Of a stretch of 36,477 nt of DNA, positions 2,113-31,768 are shown in pieces; positions within the stretch are counted from its first letter, which is position 1; the number at the start of each line of letters is the position of its first letter. The notes under the pieces were generated by a model. The model did not search any database, was not told the DNA's origin, and saw only the letters and a list, made by a program, of their open reading frames with translations. The stretch spans positions 1 to 36,477 of the forward strand of contig JALWLO010000117.1 in assembly GCA_027084135.1 (NCBI GenBank). The letters are read 5' to 3'. The translations under genes were made by a program, and so were the position numbers. Origin of the DNA: Campylobacterales bacterium (GTDB lineage Bacteria; Campylobacterota; Campylobacteria; Campylobacterales; QNZT01).

Positions 2113-3666
2113 TTACTTATTGTGTGCAAAGTAGTTGTTGATACCGTTATAGATGCCTTTGGCAAGCATCTTTTGATAAAAAGGGTTATAGAGTCTATCC
2201 CCCTCCATCGGGTTAGTGATATAACCGATCTCTACAAGAACCGCCGGCATCTGTGCTCCTACAAGCACCCAAAACGGTGCTTCTCTTACACCACCATCCT
2301 TCACGGAAGTAAATTTTGCTCTTGTCGCCGCCAAAAGTCCGCTTTGGATATCTATAGCGAGTTTATTGGATTGGATGATTTTGTTTCTATTGAGAAAATC
2401 AAGCAGCGTATCTTTGCTAACCTTATTGAGTTTGCCGGCAACGGCATTCTCTTTAGCGGCGACTCGTTTTGCTCTGTCACTTCTAGCCGGTGAGAGGAAA
2501 AATGTCTCTATCCCCTTGAGTGAGAGGTGTTTCCCCTTTGGAGCAGCATTTGCATGGATAGAGATAAAGAGATCGGCGTGCATTTTATTGGCAAATTTCG
2601 TTCTTTCGGTTAGTTTGATAAATCTATCCCCCTCTCTCGTCATAAAGACTCTATATCCCTTTTTAACCAGCATCTTTTTAAGCAGTTTGGCTACCTTTAG
2701 TACCGCCACCTTCTCTTTATGTTTTTTATAGCCTATGGCTCCGCTATCATGTCCGCCGTGACCGGGATCTAGTACTATGATTTTACTTGAGGCATAGATC
2801 TTATCGTCGTCACTCGGTATTGCCGCCGGGACGATTGCCGGTGCGGCTATCTTTTCCTCTTTTTTCTTTTGAGATTTTTTTGTATGGGTCTCTTTTTTGG
2901 GTTTTATTTTGGGTGTTGGAGAGAGGGTTTTTGTCTCTACTTTTGCCACTCTTCTTGGATTTTTGTGTACCATGATAAAGAGGTTGCCTTTTCGTATGAA
3001 GGCTTTTGAATAGATCATATTTTTATCTTGCAAAACGACTCTTACGAGATCACTTTGATGCTGTTTTACTTTTATCTTATCAATATTTGGAAGCTTGAAA
3101 AGTCTACTACTACTTAAGATCCTGGCTTTAATATCATAGACACTCTTATACCCCTCTTCAGTGAGGGTTTTAAAGTAGAATATATCATCATCTGTTAAGG
3201 GCTTATTGAATTTGATTATAAGAGTATTCTCTTTTGTAGAGATGGAGTTTATTTTTCTGGTTATCGGTTTGGATTTTGTCACTTTTTTCTTTATTGGCGC
3301 TTTTATGATAGAGTTTTTTTTACTGCTAGTACTAGCGATACTCTTGCTTTTATGCTTTTGAGGAGAAACGCTCTTTTGGGGGAGTTTTTTTGTTAGTGCT
3401 TCCAGCTCTTTTTGGTAGCTTCTGCTATCCATATTTAAGAGTCTTCTGCATCTGATAATCCCTCTAAGAGATTTTACGATGCTCTCTTTATCGTTTGCTA
3501 CGACGCTACTGATATAGATATTTTCAAATTGGTGCAGTATATCGACAGTCTGTGCCTTTGTTGCATAAGGTACTTTTTGATTGAGTTTATCTATCTTTTG
3601 GGAGAGCCCGCTTGCGAGAAGTAGGCTTGTCGTTAGTACTAAAAGATAGATAACCCTAACTAGCAT
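2113..3666 (-). CDS. N-acetylmuramoyl-L-alanine amidase (Amidase_3, AmiC type)
   Basis: This is a periplasmic zinc amidase that cleaves the bond between MurNAc and L-Ala during daughter-cell separation. An N-terminal signal segment (to about residue 22) is followed by about 270 residues of linker, including a Lys-rich stretch and an AMIN-like region (about 145-240). The C-terminal catalytic domain (about 297-519) has LDPGHGG, ISIHANA and VLVEIGYITN; the zinc/catalytic set is H305, E320, H373 and E481, counting from the GTG at 3672. ATG 3666 and GTG 3672 are both possible starts and neither has an ideal ribosome site. The start overlaps the end of the upstream monooxygenase gene. The equivalent Helicobacter pylori gene (amiA, HP0772) sits in the same order. 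It is a likely target of the FtsEX/EnvC-like system encoded further along. Confidence 0.92.
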   Translation of the reverse strand: MLVRVIYLLVLTTSLLLASGLSQKIDKLNQKVPYATKAQTVDILHQFENIYISSVVANDKESIVKSLRGIIRCRRLLNMDSRSYQKELEALTKKLPQKSVSPQKHKSKSIASTSSKKNSIIKAPIKKKVTKSKPITRKINSISTKENTLIIKFNKPLTDDDIFYFKTLTEEGYKSVYDIKARILSSSRLFKLPNIDKIKVKQHQSDLVRVVLQDKNMIYSKAFIRKGNLFIMVHKNPRRVAKVETKTLSPTPKIKPKKETHTKKSQKKKEEKIAAPAIVPAAIPSDDDKIYASSKIIVLDPGHGGHDSGAIGYKKHKEKVAVLKVAKLLKKMLVKKGYRVFMTREGDRFIKLTERTKFANKMHADLFISIHANAAPKGKHLSLKGIETFFLSPARSDRAKRVAAKENAVAGKLNKVSKDTLLDFLNRNKIIQSNKLAIDIQSGLLAATRAKFTSVKDGGVREAPFWVLVGAQMPAVLVEIGYITNPMEGDRLYNPFYQKMLAKGIYNGINNYFAHNK

Positions 3667-4765
3667 CTTCACCGTGGATTAATTTTTGCATGAGCTCTTT
3701 TACGGTTATCACCTCGTTGATCCTATAACCGTTGCTACCAGTAAAAAAGAGACCCGTTTCGGTATTTCCCATATAGGCATCCGACAATCTATCGGCTATA
3801 CAGTATCCTACAGCTTTTGCCTCTTCACCCCTTTTGCATGGTGCGACACAGTTGCTGATACATTTGATAGGGATAGGGGGTTTGGGGCTTGACTCAACCA
3901 TCTCTATCAGCTTGGTTTTCACACCTCTTGCGGGATAACCGACCGGCGATTTGAGAAGCTTGATATCCTCCTCTTTCGCTTCGATGAGAACTTTTTTAAA
4001 GGCTTCGGGAGCATCACACTCTTTGGTGGCTATAAATCTCGTAGCCATCTGAACACCGTCAGCTCCAAGAGAGATCATCCTCTCTATATCCTTTTTGTCC
4101 CAGATACCGCCTGCGGCTATGAGCGGAAAGTCTCCCCACTTCTTTATCTCCTCTTTGATCGGAGCGATCAAGTTTTCGAGTTGAAACTCCTCCATAAAGC
4201 ACTGCTCATAGGTAAATCCCTGGTGACCTCCACTCTTAGGACCCTCTACGATCACCGCATCCGGGAGTCTGTTATATCTCTGTTTCCATCGTTTACAGAT
4301 GATTTTCAACGCTTTGGCGGATGAGACGATCGGTACAAGTGCTACATCCGGAAAGCCTTGCGTAAACTCTGGCATATTTGTAGGTAAACCGGCGCCTGTT
4401 ACGATGATATCCGCTCCAGCCTCACAAGAGTCTCTCACAACTCTTCCGTAGTCATTGATAGCATACAAGACATTTGCGCCGAGCGGTTTGTCTCCACAGA
4501 TCTCTCTAGCACTCTTAAAAATCTCAATAAGTGCTTTTTTGCTATAGAAGTTTATCGTCTCGTAGGGTTTACCTTCTATATCTTTTTCTATAAAAGCTCT
4601 GTTTTTGTAGTAACCTGTTCCGACACTCGAGATGATGCCTAGACCACCCTCTTTGCTTACATTTCCAGCTAATTGATCCCAACTGATACCTACACCCATT
4701 CCACCTTGAAAGATAGGATATTCTATCTCATGTTTTCCTATCTTGATACTTTTAAAACTCATCAT
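3656..4765 (-). CDS. Nitronate monooxygenase / FMN-dependent 2-nitropropane dioxygenase family
   Basis: A 369-residue TIM-barrel flavoprotein. The N-terminal FQGGMGVGISWDQLAG, the central GPKSGGHQG (probable catalytic His181) and the FMN-phosphate loop regions IAAGGIWD and GADGVQMATRF are characteristic of the nitronate monooxygenase/FabK-like family. The C-terminal region has a cysteine cluster (Cys302, Cys306, Cys310, Cys322) in CISNCVAPC, which might bind a metal or cluster; I infer this only from spacing. The start ATG overlaps the tyrS stop as ATGA, indicating translational coupling. In H. pylori the same gene (HP0773) lies between tyrS and the amidase, so the position is ancient in this phylum although the physiological substrate is not known to me. 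Confidence 0.85.
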   Translation of the reverse strand: MMSFKSIKIGKHEIEYPIFQGGMGVGISWDQLAGNVSKEGGLGIISSVGTGYYKNRAFIEKDIEGKPYETINFYSKKALIEIFKSAREICGDKPLGANVLYAINDYGRVVRDSCEAGADIIVTGAGLPTNMPEFTQGFPDVALVPIVSSAKALKIICKRWKQRYNRLPDAVIVEGPKSGGHQGFTYEQCFMEEFQLENLIAPIKEEIKKWGDFPLIAAGGIWDKKDIERMISLGADGVQMATRFIATKECDAPEAFKKVLIEAKEEDIKLLKSPVGYPARGVKTKLIEMVESSPKPPIPIKCISNCVAPCKRGEEAKAVGYCIADRLSDAYMGNTETGLFFTGSNGYRINEVITVKELMQKLIHGEDAS

Positions 4766-9153: not shown

Positions 9154-9216
9154 CATAAACTTCATAAGAGACAGGTAAATAGAACATGCGTACTAATGTA
9201 AATTTTGGGTTTAGTA

Positions 9217-10431
9217 CTACTTTATCATTCTAAGTGGGTTGATGTGTTTTTCGTTTTGGGTTACTTCAAAGGTAAGATCTCTTTTGACTCTGCCGATGAT
9301 ATACCCTTTTTTAACACGCTTCCCGACTCTTATCGTCGGTGCGATTTTAGATAGATGTGCATAGATGGTGTGGATATTGTTTTTATGCTTAATGATCACT
9401 ACATTTTCAAGCATAGGCGTTTTATCCGCATAGATCACGGTTCCATCTAAGACATTTCTTACCTTTGCATTTTTAGTAGATGCTCTCAAAACAACAGATT
9501 CGTTATAGATCTTAATTTTATAGATTGGGTCTATATAGTTACCGAACTTTTGTACAACCTTGTACTTTTTAAGTGGAGCGATCGTTTTGGGACCTTTATA
9601 TTTGACAATTTTGTCATGTTGGTAGGAAGAGCCGATTTTTCTTACATTGATCTTCCCTTTTGAGACCTCTTTGATGATCGTTTTATCTCTCTTCTCTTTT
9701 GTGATATGGAGTTTTTTAAGCGTTTTGGCAAGTGCATTTTGTTCAGTTTTGATCCTATTGAGTTTGTCGATATAACTTTGTTTCTTCTTTTTAAGCTCAA
9801 GAAGAGCATTTTTTTGAGACGCCTTTAACTCATTTAATGTTTTTTGTTTTTCCTTTAGTTTATCGACCCTATTGGCAAGTTTAGAGAGTTCGGTTTTGAT
9901 AAGGTCTATATTTTTGTTGAGAGCGATATACCTCTTTTTTGTCTTTTTAAATTTGTCTCTAAGGAGTTTAATATATTGGCGTAAGATCTCATTCATGATA
10001 AAGTCATCTTGCGTTAAATCATTTGCCTCAAGCTGTTTTGTACCGTTTACATCGATACCGCCGTCGCTTATCATCTCTATCGACAACTCTTTTGAGATGA
10101 TGGCTATCACTTTTGCACTAACCTCTCTCTCCTTTTTGGTTAACTCTCTATAGATCTTTGTCACTTTTTTGAGTTGAGAGCTTTTGATCTTGCTTCTTTT
10201 TTTTAGCTTTTGGATATCCGCTTCACATGCGCTTATGTCAGATGCGATCTTTTTGATATTTCTTTTTTGTTTCTCGATCTCTTTAGCTATGAGTTCGAGT
10301 TGATTTGCTATCTTCTTCTCTTGGGACTTTTTCTTGTCTATCTTCACTTGAGCAGACTCTATCTTGTCATCGATCGAGCTACTAGCTTGTAAAAAGAGCG
10401 ATAGAGCTAGTACTAACCAGATACCCCTCAT
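9217..10431 (-). CDS. EnvC-like murein hydrolase activator (coiled coil + degenerate LytM/M23)
   Basis: A signal peptide (to about residue 18) is followed by a long coiled coil (about 20-250, Lys/Glu/Leu heptads) and a C-terminal LytM/M23 domain (about 290-404). The M23 metal ligands are largely gone. Where active enzymes have HxGxD this protein has DPIYKIKIYNES, and the terminal HxH is replaced by LTFEV; only the YAH histidine remains. That is the EnvC pattern: a non-catalytic domain that activates cell-wall amidases. It directly follows ftsX with an ATGA overlap, so it is very likely the periplasmic partner of FtsEX and an activator of the Amidase_3 protein encoded at 2113-3666. The TAG stop codon is formed by a copy of the iterated TAGTACTA palindrome. 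Confidence 0.85.
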   Translation of the reverse strand: MRGIWLVLALSLFLQASSSIDDKIESAQVKIDKKKSQEKKIANQLELIAKEIEKQKRNIKKIASDISACEADIQKLKKRSKIKSSQLKKVTKIYRELTKKEREVSAKVIAIISKELSIEMISDGGIDVNGTKQLEANDLTQDDFIMNEILRQYIKLLRDKFKKTKKRYIALNKNIDLIKTELSKLANRVDKLKEKQKTLNELKASQKNALLELKKKKQSYIDKLNRIKTEQNALAKTLKKLHITKEKRDKTIIKEVSKGKINVRKIGSSYQHDKIVKYKGPKTIAPLKKYKVVQKFGNYIDPIYKIKIYNESVVLRASTKNAKVRNVLDGTVIYADKTPMLENVVIIKHKNNIHTIYAHLSKIAPTIRVGKRVKKGYIIGRVKRDLTFEVTQNEKHINPLRMIK

Positions 10432-11237: not shown

Positions 11238-11901
11238 TTAAAACTCCATCATTTAAAAAATACTGTTTATAGTCAACTCCTAAAGTTTGCGGTATCTTAT
11301 GGGTGGCGACGATGATCGTACTACCGACATGAAGACGCACATTTTTCAAAAGCTCCCAAATGACCGAGCTTGAATACTCATCCAAGTTTCCCGTCGGTTC
11401 ATCCGCTATGATAAGTAGAGGGTTGTGTGCCAGCGCTCTAGCCATCGCTACTCTTTGCTGTTCGCCGCCGCTAAGCTCTAACGGAAACTTTTGCGCTTTG
11501 TGGAGAAGCTTGACATGCTTTAGCAGTTTATGGGCTTGGGCTTTGCATATCTCTTTGGAGTAGCCGGCTATCATAAGTGGGAGCATCACATTTTTCTCTA
11601 CACTCCACTCGTTGATTAGCTTATAGTCTTGAAAGATAACACCGATATGTTTGCGAAGGAGATTTTTCTTATCTCTAGGGATACCGTTGAGTGAAAAGCC
11701 GGCAACTCTAAGATCCCCGCTAAAAACCGGCAACTCCGCATAGAGGGATTTTAAGAGGGTCGATTTACCGCTACCGCTTTTTCCGGTGATAAATACAAAC
11801 TCTTTAGGTTTCACTCCAAAAGAGATATTTTTGATCACCGGCTCATCTTTTTTATATGCAAGCGTGAGGTGTCTCGCCTCTACAATGTAACTACTACCCA
11901 T
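11224..11901 (-). CDS. ftsE: Cell division ATP-binding protein FtsE
   Basis: An ABC ATPase of 225 residues with Walker [10 protein letters not shown] (40-48), signature LSGGEQQR (143-150), and Walker [15 protein letters not shown] (162-175). The Q-loop context [10 protein letters not shown] is typical of FtsE. It binds FtsX at the inner membrane and drives septal peptidoglycan hydrolysis. It overlaps trmB by eight bases upstream and ftsX by 14 bases downstream. The trmB-ftsE-ftsX-envC order matches the H. pylori HP0747-HP0750 block. Confidence 0.95.
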
Positions 11902-13066
11902 ATATCAACTCTTCAATTTTTTTGTGTGATTTTAAGTTTTGCTCGATCGGCAAAGCTTGATATGGAAAATATTGTATCTTATTATCATTAAATATAAGAT
12001 ACTTATGTTCCGGCATATCGAATGAACCGAAAGAGAGCCTTAAAATGCCGCTCTTATCATCGATAGTGAACGCCTTTTCAAAGTGTATAAAAAAGTCTTT
12101 CTCAACAACGGCTTTTTGAGGCAACTTCTCTACAGCTTGACGAAAGGGGATAAACTTCTCAAAATCAAACTTCGGTATCTGCTTTTTGGGTGGAGAGTGG
12201 AGAGTGTTTGTGTAGATGATATCATAGATATTTTTTTCAAGTCTTTTCCATCTATCTTCATATTTACTACTAATCTCAATCTCTCTATTTTTTCGTATCT
12301 CAAGCTCGAAACTGTTGAGCGAGTTAAAGAGTTCATATGCGTAGTTGTAGTAGTTATCGCTATCGGTTCTAAGTTCAACCGTTCCACCCACCTTTAGTAC
12401 CCGACTTGCCTCATCGATAAAGGCTTTGGAGATCACTCTTCTATGGGGTTTTTTATCCCAAGGAACCGGAAAGTGGACAAATATTTTGCCTACTATATTT
12501 GATGGAAGAAGTTGTAAAAATATCCGTGCGTCAAATTTAAGGACTTTGATGTTTTGGATATTTTGTATTTTGCACTGTTTGATTAACTGTTCGATCGAGG
12601 GAGAGTGTATCTCTAAACCGATAAAATCAATCTCAGGATGTTTTTTGGCCTGATAGAGCAGGTGTCTTCCGCTACCGAAACCTATCTCTATCCAGACCTC
12701 CTTTTGAAATTCCTTATCTATAAAATAGGAGACATCTTTGAGATATTCGTCAGATTTTTGAAAGTGGCTTTGACTCTTTTTGCTCTCGATGTTTGAAAAG
12801 GTAACCTCCAAGTTGTGGGCGCTACTAAAGGCTTTCAGCGCATTTTGGATGATCGATACAGGTGAGGGGCGGGTAAGTTTGTCATATTTGATGAGATAGT
12901 CCTTATCTCTTTGAATGATCCTGATGAAAAACTCTCTATCTCTATATCTCGTTAGTACTAAGGACTCTCTCTTATCATCTCTTGTGGCAGAGAGTAGAAA
13001 TTTAAACTCCCCCTCCTCAAAAGGGAGTGGTTTTAGTGCTAACGCTTTCGTTTGGATATTTGGCAT
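11894..13066 (-). CDS. trmB: tRNA (guanine-N7)-methyltransferase, long form
   Basis: Methylates G46 of tRNA using S-adenosylmethionine. The SAM-binding motif EIGFGSGRH is at 127-135, GLEIHSPS follows at about 150-157, and the TrmB signature HFPVPWDKKPHRR is at about 198-210 with ELRTDSDNYY beyond. At 390 residues it is much longer than the usual 210-240: about 110 extra residues precede the methyltransferase fold and about 120 follow. Long versions of this kind are known to me from Campylobacterota, so this is lineage-typical and not a fusion artefact. The role of the extra domains is unknown. Confidence 0.92.
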   Translation of the reverse strand: MPNIQTKALALKPLPFEEGEFKFLLSATRDDKRESLVLTRYRDREFFIRIIQRDKDYLIKYDKLTRPSPVSIIQNALKAFSSAHNLEVTFSNIESKKSQSHFQKSDEYLKDVSYFIDKEFQKEVWIEIGFGSGRHLLYQAKKHPEIDFIGLEIHSPSIEQLIKQCKIQNIQNIKVLKFDARIFLQLLPSNIVGKIFVHFPVPWDKKPHRRVISKAFIDEASRVLKVGGTVELRTDSDNYYNYAYELFNSLNSFELEIRKNREIEISSKYEDRWKRLEKNIYDIIYTNTLHSPPKKQIPKFDFEKFIPFRQAVEKLPQKAVVEKDFFIHFEKAFTIDDKSGILRLSFGSFDMPEHKYLIFNDNKIQYFPYQALPIEQNLKSHKKIEELIYG

Positions 13067-19690: not shown

Positions 19691-19993
19691 TTACAGCGGT
19701 GTTTTGAGTATCTCTTTATATGCGTTGAGTGCTTTGTTTCTAACCTCTAACATCATCTTCATACTGATCTCAGCTTTATCGATAGCGATGGCGGCTTGAT
19801 GGAGATCTTTTACTTCACCCGTAGCAATATCCCTTAGGGCGTTATCAGCTTTTATCTGTTTGTTATTTACATCATTGATCGCATCTTTTAGTATCGATAA
19901 AAAGTCACTATTTGTATTATTAGTACTACTATTGTTTACTTGATTGTTTAATGATCTATTTAATTGTGAAATGCTGCCTACTAGATTTGCCAT
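19691..19993 (-). CDS. fliE: Flagellar hook-basal body protein FliE
   Basis: One hundred residues, the usual FliE size. A variable Asn/Ser-rich N-terminus (to about 25) is followed by the conserved helical region DFLSILKDAINDVN...ALRDIATGEVKDLHQAAIAIDKAEISMKMMLEVRNKAL, in which the DLH and EVRNK segments are diagnostic. FliE joins the MS ring to the proximal rod. It starts three bases after flgC, in the flgB-flgC-fliE operon. Confidence 0.95.
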   Translation of the reverse strand: MANLVGSISQLNRSLNNQVNNSSTNNTNSDFLSILKDAINDVNNKQIKADNALRDIATGEVKDLHQAAIAIDKAEISMKMMLEVRNKALNAYKEILKTPL

Positions 19994-21093: not shown

Positions 21094-22254
21094 TTGGAGA
21101 CGGATAAAAAGCTATTTTACTATGCGAGTGCATTTATCACTATTGGGATCATCTTCTCATACTCACTCTCCATATATGTTTCGACGATTTACGGTGTCAG
21201 TGAATTTTTCTTTTTCAAAAAGCAGTTTGTAGCGGGGATGCTGGGTATCCTTATCATGTGGTTGCTTTCGAGATTAGATCCCGATAAAGCATTTAGACCT
21301 ATTGGATTTACATTTTTTTTACTCTTTCTCTTTATGATGACGGCGATGCATTTTTTGCCGAGTTCACTGGTGACGGAAGTGGGAGGGGCGAAGCGCTGGA
21401 TCAAGTTGGCAGGTTTTTCCATCGCTCCGGTGGAGTTCTTCAAAGTGGGCTTCGTTTTTTTTCTAGCGTGGAGCTTCTCTAGAAAGATCGGAGTTCATAA
21501 GGCGACACTAAAGGAGGAGTTCATTACATTTGTACCCTATGTGATGGCTTTTGGAGTGGTTGTATATCTGATAGCTATTATGCAAAATGATTTGGGGCAG
21601 GTAGTGGTACTTGGCTTTACGCTGGCCATCATGGCGTTTATGGCTGGTACTAGTGCCAGGTTTTTCATGCTCTCAACCATCGGGGCGATCGCTGTTTTTA
21701 TCGTCTCTATCGTAACGAGTGAACATAGGATACTCAGGATAAAGCTATGGTGGAGCAATATCCAAGACCTTGTACTCTCATTTTTGCCAAGTAGTTTAGC
21801 AAATCACTTAAGGGTAAAAGATACCATTGAGCCTTATCAAATCTCAAACTCCTTTTATGCGATAAAAAACGGCGGTTTTTTGGGGCAAGGGCTTGGAAAT
21901 GGGACAGTGAAGCTTGGTTTTTTAACCGAAGTTCATACCGATTTTGTGCTAGCGGGAATTGCCGAAGAGATAGGTATCATAGGTGTTACGGCAGTGATCG
22001 TTCTCTTTTTTATGATGGTTTTTAGGATATTTGTCATCGCAAATAGGCTAGAAAATAGGATGGAATCCCTTTTCGTACTAGGGATCGGACTTATATTTAC
22101 TTTAGCTTTTTTTATCAATGCTTTCGGCATAACCGGTATCACCCCGATAAAAGGTATTGCCGTACCCTTTTTAAGTTACGGCGGAAGTTCGATCTTGGCT
22201 CATTCCATCGCTATTGGTATGGTTTTGATGTTGAGTAAAAAGGTGAGATGGTGA
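21094..22254 (+). CDS. ftsW: Septal SEDS peptidoglycan polymerase FtsW
   Basis: A polytopic membrane protein with about ten helices, paired with FtsI to polymerise septal peptidoglycan. Diagnostic segments are GGAKRWIKLAGFSIAPVEFFK, MQNDLGQ (conserved Asp) and KGIAVPFLSYGGSS near the C-terminus. The frame opens at TTG 21070, but no ribosome site precedes that codon. TTG 21094 has AAGG ten bases upstream and gives an N-terminus (LETDKKLFYYAS) like other FtsW proteins of the phylum, so I prefer it. It overlaps murG by seven bases and is divergent from flgB. Confidence 0.92.
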   Translation: METDKKLFYYASAFITIGIIFSYSLSIYVSTIYGVSEFFFFKKQFVAGMLGILIMWLLSRLDPDKAFRPIGFTFFLLFLFMMTAMHFLPSSLVTEVGGAKRWIKLAGFSIAPVEFFKVGFVFFLAWSFSRKIGVHKATLKEEFITFVPYVMAFGVVVYLIAIMQNDLGQVVVLGFTLAIMAFMAGTSARFFMLSTIGAIAVFIVSIVTSEHRILRIKLWWSNIQDLVLSFLPSSLANHLRVKDTIEPYQISNSFYAIKNGGFLGQGLGNGTVKLGFLTEVHTDFVLAGIAEEIGIIGVTAVIVLFFMMVFRIFVIANRLENRMESLFVLGIGLIFTLAFFINAFGITGITPIKGIAVPFLSYGGSSILAHSIAIGMVLMLSKKVRW

Positions 22255-23246
22255 GTATCGTGATAACTGGCGGCGGTACAGGCGGGCATCTAGCTATCGC
22301 TAAGGTGATCAAAGAGGAGTTAAATCGTCGAGGTATAGAACCTATCTTTATCGGCTCCACAAAAGGGCAAGATAGGCAGTGGTTTGGCACAGATAGCGGT
22401 TGGAGCAAAAAACTCTTTTTAGAGACAAGTGGAGTGGTCGATAAGAGAGGTCTGTCAAAACTGAGCTCTCTTTTTAGTATTCTCAAAGAGAGTTTAAAGT
22501 TACAAAGATTTTTCAAAGAAAATAGAGTTAAAGCGGTTTTAAGTGTAGGCGGATACTCCGCCGCCCCTGCTTCCTTTGCCGCTGTCATAACTCCTAGTAC
22601 TAAGCTCTATATCCAAGAGCAAAATGCCGTAATGGGTTCGCTAAATAGAGTGCTTACACCCTTTGCCGCAAAAGTATTTAATACCGATACCTTTCCAATA
22701 AGAGAGATATTTTTTGAAAAAGCGAGAGTGAGAGAGGAGCTTAAAACGATCATCTTTCTCGGCGGAAGTCAAGGAGCAAGAGCTATCAATAACTTTGCAA
22801 GAAGTATCGCTAAAACATTAGATGCTAAAGGTATAAAAATCATTCACCAATGCGGTAAAAATGATTATCAGAATTTAAAAGAGTTTTATACAGAAGCGGG
22901 GATAGATGCGGAGCTTTTTAGCTTTAGCAGGGAGTTGGTTGATTTTATGTTTCGAGCCGATTTTGCCATTAGCAGGGCGGGGGCGAGTACACTATGGGAA
23001 CTTACGGCTAACGGACTTCCCGCACTCTTTGTACCATACCCGTACGCAGCCGGAGATCATCAATACTACAATGCAAAATATCTTGCCGATAAGGGTTTGG
23101 CACTTCTGAAAAGAGAGGGGGAGTTAAATAGTTTAGTACTAAAGGAGATAGAGCGTATCAATCTTAAAGAGATTAGTACTAAATTGATGCATGTAGCCAA
23201 AAGGGATGGTGCTAAGAGAATAGTGGATGCACTACTCTCTGCTTAG
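22248..23246 (+). CDS. murG: UDP-GlcNAc:undecaprenyl-PP-MurNAc-pentapeptide GlcNAc transferase
   Basis: Makes lipid II from lipid I on the inner face of the membrane. The GT28 N-terminal motif GGGTGGH is at residues 8-14, the acceptor-side SVGGYSAAPA follows, and the donor-binding segment SRAGASTLWELTANGLP...GDHQYYNA is present in the C-terminal half. Length 332 is slightly short but complete. ATG 22248 and GTG 22251 are both possible; AAAGG upstream fits either, and GTG would give a GTGA overlap with the ftsW stop. Three copies of the TAGTACTA palindrome lie within it. Its 3' end overlaps a convergent gene by 15 bases. Confidence 0.95.
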   Translation: MVSIVITGGGTGGHLAIAKVIKEELNRRGIEPIFIGSTKGQDRQWFGTDSGWSKKLFLETSGVVDKRGLSKLSSLFSILKESLKLQRFFKENRVKAVLSVGGYSAAPASFAAVITPSTKLYIQEQNAVMGSLNRVLTPFAAKVFNTDTFPIREIFFEKARVREELKTIIFLGGSQGARAINNFARSIAKTLDAKGIKIIHQCGKNDYQNLKEFYTEAGIDAELFSFSRELVDFMFRADFAISRAGASTLWELTANGLPALFVPYPYAAGDHQYYNAKYLADKGLALLKREGELNSLVLKEIERINLKEISTKLMHVAKRDGAKRIVDALLSA

Positions 23247-26989: not shown

Positions 26990-27474
26990 TGGAGAGTTTT
27001 TTAAAAGAGTATGAAGCGATCATATTGCCGCTTCACCTGCTTTCAGCTATCGTTTGGATAGGCGGTATGATCATGTTTATTTTTGCTGTTTATCCGTCGT
27101 TAAAACAGATACCCAATGAAAAGAGTATGACAAGAACGGCGCTTAGAACCTTTAGAAGATATTTTAACTTTCTCTTCTTTTTTATCATCATCTCAATGAT
27201 AACCGGTGTAGTGATGGAGATGGGGGGCGGTTATGAGAGCAGATCGCCCACTCTTGGAGCTATCGTTAGTACCAAAGAGGCGATATGGGTCTTGATGTTT
27301 TTGAATTTTCTCTTTTCATACTTTAAGATCATAGAAGCCAAAAACAAGTGCCTCAATAGCGATGTAGATGCCGCAAAGGATAATATCAGACTGATCACCT
27401 ACTACCTCTTTGGGATCAATATTTTTTTGGGAATTGTGGCACTCTATTTTGGTTTGATACTGCAGGGGGCGTAA
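26989..27474 (+). CDS. Small integral membrane protein (CopD/YqaA-like four-helix)
   Basis: 161 residues with four hydrophobic helices near 13-33, 56-76, 97-114 and 136-157. LHLLSAIVWIGGMIMF in helix 1 (His plus WxGG) resembles CopD-domain and related haem-binding membrane proteins. I do not recognise a specific function. It is translationally coupled to alaS (TGATG) and to maf (TAATG), so it is inside one operon. Confidence 0.75.
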   Translation: MESFLKEYEAIILPLHLLSAIVWIGGMIMFIFAVYPSLKQIPNEKSMTRTALRTFRRYFNFLFFFIIISMITGVVMEMGGGYESRSPTLGAIVSTKEAIWVLMFLNFLFSYFKIIEAKNKCLNSDVDAAKDNIRLITYYLFGINIFLGIVALYFGLILQGA

Positions 27475-28022
27475 TGATACGGCTTGCTTCAAACTCTAGT
27501 ACTAGGGCAAAACTACTTAAAGATGCGGGAGTAGTCTTTATACAAGAGGGTGTTGACTTCGATGAGGAGTTAGTACGAGCAGAAACTCCTAAAAGTTTTG
27601 TCTATCAAGCTACCCTTGGAAAATATCACGCAGCGCTTGAGAAGTTTGGCTATAAGATCCCCCTTTTAGTAGCCGATACCGTCATAACTGCACACGGTAA
27701 AATCCTTAGAAAAGCAAAAGGTGAAGCAGATGCAAGGAGGATATTATCACTACAAAGCGGCTCTGTTACCTCTATCATAACCGCTATGATCTATAAGAGT
27801 AGCACTATGGAGCTTGTAGATATCTCGGCTACTCACTACAAATTTAATAGATTTGATGAGAAGGATTTAGAGGCGTATCTCAAAAGCGGTGAGTGGAGAG
27901 GAAAAGCGGGTGCTTGCATGGTTGAGGGATTTTGCAAAAAGTATATCAAAGAGGTTAAGGGATATGAGAGTACGGCGATGGGGCTCTGTGTGGAGAAGTT
28001 GCTGCCCTTTTTGGAGAGATAG
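27474..28022 (+). CDS. maf: Maf-like nucleoside triphosphate pyrophosphatase
   Basis: 182 residues of the Maf/HAM1-type fold that hydrolyses non-canonical or modified NTPs. The N-terminal signature LASNSSTRAKLL (P-loop-like), VADTVI with the catalytic Asp, and the C-terminal KAGACMVEGF and GYESTAMGL are diagnostic. It starts at a TAATG overlap with the preceding membrane protein. The N-terminal Ser-Ser-Thr is encoded by a copy of the TAGTACTA palindrome. Confidence 0.92.
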   Translation: MIRLASNSSTRAKLLKDAGVVFIQEGVDFDEELVRAETPKSFVYQATLGKYHAALEKFGYKIPLLVADTVITAHGKILRKAKGEADARRILSLQSGSVTSIITAMIYKSSTMELVDISATHYKFNRFDEKDLEAYLKSGEWRGKAGACMVEGFCKKYIKEVKGYESTAMGLCVEKLLPFLER

Positions 28023-28024
28023 CG

Positions 28025-29119
28025 GTGTTTTATGATGATGAGCTAAAAGCGTTAAAGAGGAGCTCTCTCTTTCGAGAAAGAACGCTTTATGATGAGGGTT
28101 TGGTGGATTTGGCCTCAAACGACTATCTCTCGCTTAGCAGTAACAAAGAGCTATTTGAGAAAGCGGTGGAGAGAGTTAAAAACTATCCACACCATGCGCC
28201 GAGAGCTTCACAGCTTGTAAACGGTTATCATCCTGTACACAAAGCGTTTGAAGAGTATTTGGTTAGTACTAACGGATTTGAGGATGCGATCGTTGTAGGG
28301 AGTGGATTTTTAGCCAATATCGCTCTTTTGGAGGCGCTACCCAGAAAGGGGGATCTCCTTTTGGTAGATGAGGAGTATCATGCAAGCGGCATCTTGGCAT
28401 CCAAGCTAACCGGTGCAAAGGTGGTGTTTTTTAGTCACAATAGCGGTGTAGCGTTGGAGAAGTTGTTAAAGGAGAATAGCTACAAAAGAGCGATCGTAGC
28501 CGTTGAGGGTATCTACTCTATGAGCGGGGATCTCTTAAAGAGAGAGATATTTGATGTGGCTGATAAGTATGGTGCACTACTGGTTGTAGATGAGGCGCAT
28601 AGTTCGGGCGTAGTGGGTGAGAACTTTTTGGGGGTCTTTGATCTTTTTGGCATTACCCCCAAACCAAACCATATCAAGATGGGAACTCTCGGCAAAGCTA
28701 TCGGAAGTTACGGTGCTTATATCTTAGCCTCCAAAGAGATCATTCACTTTTTACAAAATCGGGCAAAGTCCATCATCTATGCTACCGCACCTTCACTTTT
28801 TGATATCGCTTTAGCTCATGAGGGGATGAAGTTTATAGAAGCAAACAGAATGGGTTTTATAGAAAAGCGTAATAGAGCCCAAGCGTTGACTAGGGAGATA
28901 TTTGATAAGCAAGTCGAGGGCTTAGTACTAAATATCGAGATAGCTGATAATAGAAAGGTGCTACAGATAAAAGAGAGACTTTTAGAGAGAGGAATTATCG
29001 TAGGGGCTATTAGACCTCCGACGGTTAAGAGGGCGATACTTAGAGTGATATTAAATCTCGGTGTGGAGGATTTGGAAACGACTCTGCTCAAGATCAAAGA
29101 GGCGATAGATGAGCTTTAA
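28025..29119 (+). CDS. bioF: 8-amino-7-oxononanoate synthase / AONS-KBL family aminotransferase
   Basis: A PLP-dependent alpha-oxoamine synthase of 364 residues. LVVDEAHSSGVVG gives Asp189 and His192, and MGTLGKAIGSYG gives the Schiff-base Lys224; SNDYLSLS and GSGFLAN are also family-typical. BioF, condensing pimeloyl-ACP with alanine for biotin synthesis, is the likeliest member, although glycine C-acetyltransferase and related enzymes look alike. The start is GTG 28025, three bases after the maf stop, with GGAGAG upstream. No other biotin gene is in view. Confidence 0.85.
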   Translation: MFYDDELKALKRSSLFRERTLYDEGLVDLASNDYLSLSSNKELFEKAVERVKNYPHHAPRASQLVNGYHPVHKAFEEYLVSTNGFEDAIVVGSGFLANIALLEALPRKGDLLLVDEEYHASGILASKLTGAKVVFFSHNSGVALEKLLKENSYKRAIVAVEGIYSMSGDLLKREIFDVADKYGALLVVDEAHSSGVVGENFLGVFDLFGITPKPNHIKMGTLGKAIGSYGAYILASKEIIHFLQNRAKSIIYATAPSLFDIALAHEGMKFIEANRMGFIEKRNRAQALTREIFDKQVEGLVLNIEIADNRKVLQIKERLLERGIIVGAIRPPTVKRAILRVILNLGVEDLETTLLKIKEAIDEL

Positions 29120-29804
29120 AGTCGAAAAACTTCTTATCAAGAATGGAGAGAAAAGTCTGGTTGATATCTCATTTGAGATAAAAAATGCTTTTGCGTTGGT
29201 AGGAGAGAGCGGAAGCGGGAAGTCGCTGACACTAAAGGCGCTTCTTGGACTGCTTCCCTCAAATCTGACTCTTGATATGAGTGTCGATAGTAGTTTTGAA
29301 CTTAAGAGAGGAAAGAGTGTGGCAATTATCGTTCAAAACCCGTTTACCGCCCTTTCACCGTTGACAAAAATCAAAAAGCAGTTCTTTATCGACATCGACA
29401 GGGCAGAGAAGTATATGGAGATGGTCGGACTTAGCAAAGAGTTGCTTGAGAGATTTCCGAGTGAGTTAAGTGGCGGGCAGCTTCAGCGCGTGGTGATCGC
29501 TATGGCTTTGAGTCTGAAACCCAAACTTCTACTTTTAGATGAACCGACAACGGCACTTGATGAAGATACGAAATACGAAATCATCTCTCTTTTAAAAACG
29601 CTTCAAAAAAAAGAGGGTTTTTTGATGCTGTTTGTCACGCATGAGATAGATATTACAAAGGATATTTGCCAAGAGATTGCTATACTAAAAGATGGTAAGA
29701 TTGTAGAGAGCGGAGAGATTTTAGAGGTTTTGGAAAAACCGAAGGAGAGCTATACCAAGTCTCTCATAGAGGCAACTTTTAGACATAGGAAGTTTAGGCA
29801 ATGA
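29109..29804 (+). CDS. ABC transporter ATPase, dipeptide/nickel-import type
   Basis: 231 residues with Walker A GESGSGKS (32-39), Q-loop VQNPFTALSP, signature LSGGQLQR (120-127) and Walker B LLLLDEPTTALDE (139-151). GESGSGKS together with QNPxxALxP is the DppD/OppD/NikD subclass. It lacks the C-terminal oligopeptide extension of OppD/DppD (about 320 residues), making it NikD-sized. No permease or binding-protein gene is adjacent. It overlaps bioF by 11 bases and pbpA by four (ATGA), so it is co-translated with a peptidoglycan synthase. Its substrate is unknown; murein-peptide uptake would be a guess. Confidence 0.85.
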   Translation: MSFKVEKLLIKNGEKSLVDISFEIKNAFALVGESGSGKSLTLKALLGLLPSNLTLDMSVDSSFELKRGKSVAIIVQNPFTALSPLTKIKKQFFIDIDRAEKYMEMVGLSKELLERFPSELSGGQLQRVVIAMALSLKPKLLLLDEPTTALDEDTKYEIISLLKTLQKKEGFLMLFVTHEIDITKDICQEIAILKDGKIVESGEILEVLEKPKESYTKSLIEATFRHRKFRQ

Positions 29805-31768
29805 AATATATCGTGAGATTTTTTTTAGTACTAATTGTCATTGCGGTAGTCTCTCTCTTTGCTTTAGTACTAAAATATAAAGATGAACTAAAATTTGATA
29901 CCGATAAGCTAGTTAATTACCATGTAAACTTAACGACTAAGATATATGATCGAAACGGCAAACTTATCTCAAATATCTTTGAGGGTGAGCATAGAGAGTA
30001 TGTAAATTTTAAAGATATTCCGCCAAGGATGGTTGAAGCGGTTGTTGCGATAGAGGATACCGCATTTTTCGAGCATAGCGGAGTTAATTTTGAGGCGATT
30101 TTGAGAGCGGTACTCAAGGCTGTAAAGTATGGAAGATTGAAAGAGGGTGCATCAACCATCACTCAGCAGCTTGTAAAAAATGTCCTCTTAACACCTAAAA
30201 AGACGCTCAAGAGAAAGATCAACGAAGCGGTGCTGGCTATGAAGGTGGAGCGAGAGCTTACAAAAGAGCAGATCATGGAGCGTTACCTCAATGAGATATA
30301 TTACGGACATCGGTACTATGGGGTGAAAACGGCTGCTCATGGCTACTTTAAAAAGGATCTTGAAGATCTTAACTTAAAAGAGATAGCGATACTTGCCGGT
30401 ATCCCCCAAAGACCAAACGCTTATGATCCTACTAAACATTATGATCTCTCACTCTCAAGGGCAAATACCGTTTTAGAGAGGATGTACAATCTCGGATGGA
30501 TAAGCAAAGAGGAGCTTGAAAAGTATCAAAAGTTAAGACCCAAAGTCTATAACCAGCCTCTTAAAAGAAAGCGAAATCTCTATATCGAAAATATGATTAC
30601 AAAGAGTCTAAAGGGTGAGTTTAGTGACTTGAAAAAGGGAGGATATAAAGTCTATACGACACTAGATTTGGAGATACAAGAGTTAGCGCAAAAGGCACTT
30701 GATCATGCTTATGAAAATATCTTACAAAGAGGTGACGAAGCTATCAAAAAGGGAGTAGAGGTTGATTATAGCGACTTGAATGGGGCTATGGTCGTACTTG
30801 ATAGCCATAGCGGTGAAGTGTTGGCGGTAATCGGTAGCGTTAGTAGTAAGCAGAGTGAATTTAATAGAGCCTTGCAAGGTAAAAGGCAGCCCGGTTCTAG
30901 CTTCAAACCTTTTATCTATCAGGTTGCTTTGAATCTTGGCTACTCTCCAAGTAGTAAATTGGCCGATATTTCAAGAAGTTTTACATTTCGAGACGGTGAT
31001 GAGGATAAAGAGTGGAAACCGAAAAATTATGAGAAAAATTTTGAGGGACTTATCACTCTAAGGGATGCGCTAGTTCACTCAAGAAATCTAGCGACGATAA
31101 ATCTCGTCAATGAGATAGGGCTTAGTACAGTGCATAGTGAGGTAGAGAAGATGGGATTTGAGGATATTCCTATGGATCTCTCTATCTCACTTGGAACTTT
31201 TAACATCTCACCGTTGAAGTTTGCTTCAATGTGGACTATATTTTCAAATAGCGGTATAAGAGTGGAGCCGAAATTTGTAAGAAGTATCGTAATGAGTGAC
31301 GGCACAAAAGAGGTGATGAAAAGTATTGAACACAATGTTACAACTCCGGCTCAAACATACCTAATGACAACGATTTTAGAAGATGTGATCAAGCGAGGTA
31401 CCGGTAGAAGGATAAAAGTAAACGGCATAGAGTTAGCCGGAAAGACCGGTACGACAAACGGATATAAAGATGCGTGGTTTTGCGGTTACTCTCCGGAACT
31501 TACCGTTATCGTTTGGTTTGGTAGAGATAGTAATATGGCGATGTATAAAGAGACGGGGGGTAAAGCGGCGGCACCCGCTTTTGCGGAATTTTTCAGTGAG
31601 TATTTAAAGGTTCATCCTGAAACCAAAAGGGAGTTTGATAAACCTGAAGGTGTAAGAGAGGTAACACTGCCTAACGGACAAAAAGAGTACTATACGGATA
31701 TCTCCGCACCGAGCGATGAGAGTAGAGATAGTGCGGAGGATTTGATGGATGAGGAGTTATTGTTTTAA
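29801..31768 (+). CDS. pbpA: Class A penicillin-binding protein 1A
   Basis: A bifunctional peptidoglycan synthase of 655 residues. One membrane helix (about 5-25) is followed by a GT51 glycosyltransferase domain with EDTAFFEH (85-92, catalytic Glu85) and GASTITQQLVKN (115-126). The transpeptidase domain has SSFK (365-368), SRN (426-428) and KTGT (547-550). The final 40 residues are acidic and probably unstructured. The membrane helix contains two copies of the TTAGTACTAA palindrome 39 bases apart, each read as Leu-Val-Leu. It lies in the alaS-maf-pbpA order also found in Campylobacter jejuni, and its 3' end overlaps a convergent gene by 12 bases. Confidence 0.94.
   Translation: MKYIVRFFLVLIVIAVVSLFALVLKYKDELKFDTDKLVNYHVNLTTKIYDRNGKLISNIFEGEHREYVNFKDIPPRMVEAVVAIEDTAFFEHSGVNFEAILRAVLKAVKYGRLKEGASTITQQLVKNVLLTPKKTLKRKINEAVLAMKVERELTKEQIMERYLNEIYYGHRYYGVKTAAHGYFKKDLEDLNLKEIAILAGIPQRPNAYDPTKHYDLSLSRANTVLERMYNLGWISKEELEKYQKLRPKVYNQPLKRKRNLYIENMITKSLKGEFSDLKKGGYKVYTTLDLEIQELAQKALDHAYENILQRGDEAIKKGVEVDYSDLNGAMVVLDSHSGEVLAVIGSVSSKQSEFNRALQGKRQPGSSFKPFIYQVALNLGYSPSSKLADISRSFTFRDGDEDKEWKPKNYEKNFEGLITLRDALVHSRNLATINLVNEIGLSTVHSEVEKMGFEDIPMDLSISLGTFNISPLKFASMWTIFSNSGIRVEPKFVRSIVMSDGTKEVMKSIEHNVTTPAQTYLMTTILEDVIKRGTGRRIKVNGIELAGKTGTTNGYKDAWFCGYSPELTVIVWFGRDSNMAMYKETGGKAAAPAFAEFFSEYLKVHPETKREFDKPEGVREVTLPNGQKEYYTDISAPSDESRDSAEDLMDEELLF

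Follow-up and report, generated by a model that had tools for sequence, protein, structure and literature searches.

The window, a 36,477-nucleotide stretch of a Campylobacterales contig, includes a PBP1A-like gene (29801-31768, plus strand) with Transgly and Transpeptidase domains. Two exact copies of the palindrome TTAGTACTAA, at 29825-29834 (codons 9-11) and 29864-29873 (codons 22-24), lie 39 bases apart in this gene, and both are read as Leu-Val-Leu in one N-terminal membrane helix, as a first-pass annotation had described. The whole window holds eight exact copies of this 10-mer, against 0.03 expected from dinucleotide shuffles, and 15 copies of its octamer core, TAGTACTA; none is assigned a strand. 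A further exact copy in the N-terminal segment of an Amidase_3 gene (3633-3642, codons 11-13; gene 2113-3672, minus strand) also encodes Leu-Val-Leu, again as annotated. The supposed copy in the M23 peptidase (envC-like) gene (9217-10431, minus strand) is indeed read as Leu-Val-Leu (codons 6-8) and contains the full core, but it is CTAGTACTAA, at 10407-10416, one base off the 10-mer. Likewise, the pair noted in the murG-like gene (22248-23246, plus strand) is 40 bases apart, at 23133-23142 and 23173-23182, but only the first copy encodes Leu-Val-Leu, the second falling in a Ser-Thr frame. The other exact copies lie in a methyltransferase-like gene (PF02390; copy 12952-12961, gene 11894-13066, minus strand; Leu-Val-Leu) and in an aminotransferase gene (28025-29119, plus strand), once in the Ser-Thr frame (28263-28272) and once as Leu-Val-Leu (28922-28931). 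Core copies with other flanks are CTAGTACTAT at 2769-2778 (Amidase_3 gene, Ile-Val-Leu); CTAGTACTAG at 3326-3335 (Amidase_3 gene, Ser-Thr frame) and 27496-27505 (codon 8 of a Maf-like gene, 27474-28022, plus strand, Ser-Thr frame); TTAGTACTAC at 9211-9220 (overlapping the 3′ end of the ORF at 9217-10431, minus strand, and classed as intergenic) and 19920-19929 (a small ORF, 19691-19993, minus strand, Ser-Thr frame); and a second CTAGTACTAA at 22594-22603 (murG-like gene, Ser-Thr frame).

The genome from which the window comes (G000; 1.98 Mb in 144 contigs, 92% complete) contains 553 copies of the 10-mer and only 4 of the reversed word. Flanking bases of the octamer, tallied over 682 kb, were most commonly T/A and then C/G, which gives the consensus YTAGTACTAR; beyond a few bases the profile was near background, as for single dispersed copies with no longer shared repeat. 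The octamer occurred 560 times in 895 kb, compared with 22 expected under a third-order Markov model. A 1.126-Mb sample (87 pieces, including 15,676 N) contained 308 10-mers and 701 octamers, or 0.63 octamers per kb, which extrapolates to about 1,250 per genome. Octamer counts were even across the 63 pieces that were 5 kb or longer (chi2 = 52.8, df 62, p = 0.79), and a macrodomain marker was rejected on this evidence. Variants one base off the core had observed-to-expected ratios of 0.64-3.55 (895 kb), without clear depletion; those raised were at the outer position (to C) and the adjacent A (to C or G), and variants of the central GTAC were near expectation. The hexamer AGTACT lacking the outer T/A was not enriched (620 minus 427, or 193, versus 224 expected). 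A polar guide word was also rejected; strand polarity is the defining feature of KOPS and Chi, and a perfect palindrome has none. What was found, a perfect palindrome over-represented genome-wide with copies dispersed both in and between genes, is what marks a highly iterated palindrome (HIP), and the word is almost certainly of this type.

Octamers numbered 602 in coding DNA (19.7 expected) and 78 between genes (1.8 expected). Since the enrichment is alike in the two compartments, it is not a codon-pair effect. One reading frame of the word has stop codons, and the other two give Leu-Val-Leu and Ser-Thr; enrichment in both of these frames and between genes bears out the first-pass suggestion of a signal at the DNA level. 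The effect on the proteome is strong. Among 1,091 ORFs (1.13 Mb), the word spells 280 of 421 Leu-Val-Leu tripeptides, compared with 6.2 expected from codon use, and 241 of 1,405 Ser-Thr dipeptides. The frequency of Leu-Val-Leu is roughly threefold that of a genus-mate (12.3 versus 4.3 per 10,000 residues), whereas the control tripeptide Val-Leu-Leu is not raised (5.1 versus 5.3). With two thirds of the Leu-Val-Leu in the sampled ORFs spelled by it, the DNA word here clearly overrides protein sequence.

Protein constraint was assessed by comparison with the genus-mate, covering 722 kb partly picked for word-bearing contigs and 274 reciprocal-best ORF pairs (median identity 64%). ORFs were called mechanically (at least 80 amino acids, longest first), leaving out ORFs with stretches of N and sites truncated at ORF ends. 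Of the 165 octamers in ortholog pairs, 151 align ungapped, usually opposite unrelated bases in the genus-mate, and 14 touch an alignment gap (8.5% versus 3.5% for controls). These ungapped alignments and the unrelated flanks refute an interspersed repeat (REP or MITE) for this genome. Amino-acid identity at site codons was 0.41, compared with 0.60 at codons drawn at random from the same genes in matching frame, a difference that the word itself may partly cause; in flanking codons untouched by the word it was still 0.488 versus 0.580 ± 0.0135, and none of 2000 random placements was as low. Density per kb varied with gene identity, from 0.69 (<50%) and 0.97 (50-60%) through 0.67 (60-70%) and 0.40 (70-80%) to 0.21 (>80%). 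In PBP1A, 19 relatives (G000 left out) have a mean pairwise identity of 0.22 over the helix (residues 6-25) and 0.57 across the full-length protein; the six residues encoded by the two sites include one, Leu11, with good conservation (0.63). Both the codon identities, at sites and flanks, and the variability of the PBP1A helix uphold the earlier proposal that copies gather where protein constraint is low. An over-represented word in permissive positions is also what characterizes a DNA-uptake sequence.

Relative to genes, copies are most frequent 10-50 bases past the start codon and scarce in the preceding 70 bases (starts being assigned heuristically). Intergenic density is 1.47 per kb in co-directional, 1.17 in convergent and 0.46 in divergent regions, the last holding 7 copies where 21 are expected (P = 0.0003). 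Low counts before starts and in divergent regions led us to reject a transcription-factor operator. Hydrophobic contexts contain 89 of 601 sites and 5.8% of codons. A preference for transmembrane segments beyond the encoded amino acids, which the first-pass annotation had anticipated, was not borne out: the word spells 83 of the 156 Leu/Ile/Val-Val-Leu tripeptides that lie in hydrophobic context and 274 of the 579 elsewhere (p = 0.21) or, counted the other way, 83 of 357 word-spelled and 73 of 378 otherwise-spelled tripeptides are in such context (p = 0.21). Of the tripeptides within residues 1-25, 90 of 154 use the word, versus 267 of 581 elsewhere (p = 0.0065), so that of the expected enrichment in signal-peptide and transmembrane codons a modest N-terminal excess stands and the membrane part is not significant. 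The membrane preference is thus explained by the encoded residues, save for this N-terminal excess.

A preferred spacing of 39-40 bases, close to four helical turns, had been proposed from the PBP1A and murG pairs. Three of 239 neighbor spacings of the 10-mer fall at 39-40 bp (0.20 in simulations), two of these being the very window pairs that gave rise to the idea; one remaining pair is ordinary, the simulated chance of at least one being 0.19. Octamer spacings at this distance number 3 of 628, versus 0.87 simulated. The proposed genome-wide excess therefore lacks independent support beyond the two window pairs, and helical phasing fared no better, as no 10-11 bp periodicity was present in copy positions of the 1.126-Mb sample. 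Short spacings are mildly in excess (24 versus 10 at 8-30 bp, self-overlaps left out). The clearest peak is at 12 bp, with seven octamer pairs versus 0.46 simulated; such pairs (for example, at C19 23223 and L180 7379) may reflect in-frame duplication or paired binding.

We then consider how widely the word occurs. Across 398 searched genomes of the order, the highest count after 553 was 20, in G184 of family f13, which has 2 copies of the reversed word. The genus-mates have 7 copies (99% complete genome) and 0 copies (57% complete genome), the more complete one corresponding to locus L088, a Campylobacterales MAG of a public collection. These analyses demonstrate a DNA-level word that is specific to one lineage and restrained by protein constraint. 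Scanning the public genome collection for closely paired copies returned 91 stretches, and among 20 genomes counted from them two Clostridia were highest, with 88 and 40 copies. Clostridia E09__bin234 (88 copies versus 2) was rejected as a second genome with the word, since in the loci read the copies mostly flank a hairpin repeat some 60 bp long; the 10-mer bounds a dispersed hairpin repeat of this size in L016-L089 of that genome and in L059 of E02__bin331. In viral contigs, 45 stretches with the word were counted; these were rejected as parallels, the seven examined being local arrays or repeats. In L272, L289, L261, L268 and L266 the palindromes form short arrays with steps of about 15-60 bp, resembling operator arrays. 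Full-text literature searches (10-mer, octamer, highly iterated palindrome and related terms) gave no report of the word among the listed matches; the match to the 10-mer, a VanB paper, is unrelated.

Candidate partner proteins were sought in G000. Whole-genome family searches of this 92% complete genome gave no match to D12 (PF02086) or C5 (PF00145) methyltransferases and no MutL. PF01555 matched a type III-like Mod and a TdeIII-type methyltransferase adjoining a TdeIII endonuclease, PF02384 matched a type I-like HsdM, and Eco57I matches were weak. The TdeIII-family restriction endonuclease and its neighboring methyltransferase lie at L130:17579-19920 (contig C19). A motif scan of ORFs from 57% of the genome revealed no further recognizable DNA methyltransferase. 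One ComEC-like gene is present; ComEC was found in 11 of 11 genomes searched and therefore does not discriminate. The published HIP1 model, as given in the available part of its source, requires a methyltransferase and mismatch repair (PMC4390886). Its parts are apparently not found in G000, 8% of which is missing.

Our leading proposal, held tentatively and unproven, is that the word serves in self-DNA recognition and was spread by biased DNA uptake. Because the word is a full palindrome, it would be read by a symmetric, putatively homodimeric, sequence-specific DNA-binding activity. DNA bearing it would be preferentially taken up or retained in natural transformation and would replace word-less alleles through homologous recombination, so that copies would rise by molecular drive until halted by protein and promoter constraint. 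Consistent with this are the copy numbers in G000 and its relatives, the even spread, the ungapped alignments, the low identity of site and flanking codons, the fall in density in conserved genes, the Leu-Val-Leu excess and the ComEC-like gene. We favor drive because individual selection would struggle to maintain about 1,250 interchangeable, protein-changing sites; redundant sites altering hundreds of residues are, we infer, easier to reconcile with transmission bias than with selection site by site. Two further reasons are that uptake words have been reported to favor permissive locations and gene termini (PMC2397512 and PMC2346458, in the parts accessible) and that Campylobacter jejuni, a member of this order, relies for uptake on a methylated palindrome, RAATTY, according to the accessible text of PMC10046745. 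Against it, the uptake words of Neisseria and Haemophilus are not palindromic and no methyltransferase marking the word was found in the family searches and motif scan of G000, a 92% complete multi-contig assembly. The depletion in divergent intergenic regions (7 versus 21) is also what binding by an intracellular protein could produce. Such a protein is the basis of the main rival, a realistic although doubtful possibility, in which a putative homodimeric nucleoid, repair or segregation protein would occupy the roughly 1,250 (extrapolated) sites in the manner of a HIP1-like chromosomal site, kept by selection for occupancy. Palindromy, even spread, the avoidance of divergent promoters and of the 70 bases before starts, and a density of the same order as HIP1 (PMC4390886, available part) are consistent with it, but each interchangeable site would need a selective advantage of its own, the spread across the 63 pieces is without a macrodomain pattern, and no reader protein can be named. 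The data do not discriminate between uptake drive and an intracellular binding site maintained by selection.

Sequence-biased repair or mutation could instead convert near-matches to the word as a by-product, through a methyl-directed mismatch-repair ratchet as put forward for HIP1 (PMC4390886, in the part available) or a Vsr-like process. The analogy with HIP1 and the commonness of near-matches off at outer positions speak for it, yet one-off variants, which as precursors should be depleted, are not clearly so (0.64-3.55), MutL and D12 and C5 methyltransferases were not found, and the methyltransferases that were found resemble type I, type III and TdeIII types; we consider this unlikely. Still less probable is accumulation under the protection of a palindrome-specific methyltransferase mark, orphan or from a restriction-modification system. 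HIPs elsewhere are tied to methyltransferases, as the consulted portion of PMC4390886 has it, but four whole-genome family searches and the motif scan of ORFs from 57% of the genome gave no suitable type (the missing 8% could hide one), and AGTACT shows no enrichment when the outer T/A are absent (193 versus 224). Interspersed repeats or mobile elements, operator sites and chance are most improbable of all: the 10-mer does lie within or beside hairpin repeats in two Clostridia genomes and in short arrays in some viral contigs, but in G000 flanks are unrelated, copies are mostly intragenic, 151 of 165 align ungapped, and chance predicts 0.03 in the window.

Among known systems, HIP1 (GCGATCGC) and the alternate cyanobacterial HIPs are similar in being short perfect palindromes far above expectation in and between genes, with conserved central and variable outer positions and a core hexamer that shows no enrichment apart from the full word; the alternate HIPs are also sporadic among relatives. 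The G000 word differs in being AT-rich, confined to one Campylobacterales lineage, unaccompanied by any D12/C5 methyltransferase or MutL that we could find, and associated with a strong measured proteome shift. Known DUS and USS words recur across families. Those of Neisseria and Haemophilus resemble the G000 word in numbering hundreds of copies in about 2 Mb, in permissive locations and inside coding sequence, and Pasteurellaceae uptake words share the gene-terminus bias; they are oriented, however, whereas ours is a perfect palindrome and so is not classed as a DUS, its uptake role being putative. The SlmA binding site, GTGAGTACTCAC, is a palindromic chromosomal site with tens of gammaproteobacterial sites. 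It has AGTACT in common with our word, which is likewise palindromic, but differs in its few sites and its host group. The RAATTY motif of C. jejuni is palindromic and from the same order, but it has six bases, is degenerate and needs the CtsM methylase, whereas G000 has no D12 methyltransferase match. Both the non-palindromic nature of the Neisseria and Haemophilus words (PMC1939737) and the rule that cyanobacterial HIPs usually have a cognate methyltransferase, with exceptions (PMC4390886), are taken from the accessible parts of those sources.

The word resembles a recognition signal distributed over the whole genome, mostly at positions where proteins can accommodate change. We speculate, with more doubt than confidence, that a palindromic self-DNA word of recent origin, which may act in uptake independently of methylation, swept one lineage by molecular drive and rewrote its proteome. 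What causes HIPs to accumulate in bacteria is a long-standing question studied mainly in cyanobacteria, in which methyltransferases and mismatch repair are confounded with the HIP word. Here, a word present in one lineage, with at most 20 copies in sampled relatives and apparently without those partners, allows its gain to be studied against a clean outgroup.
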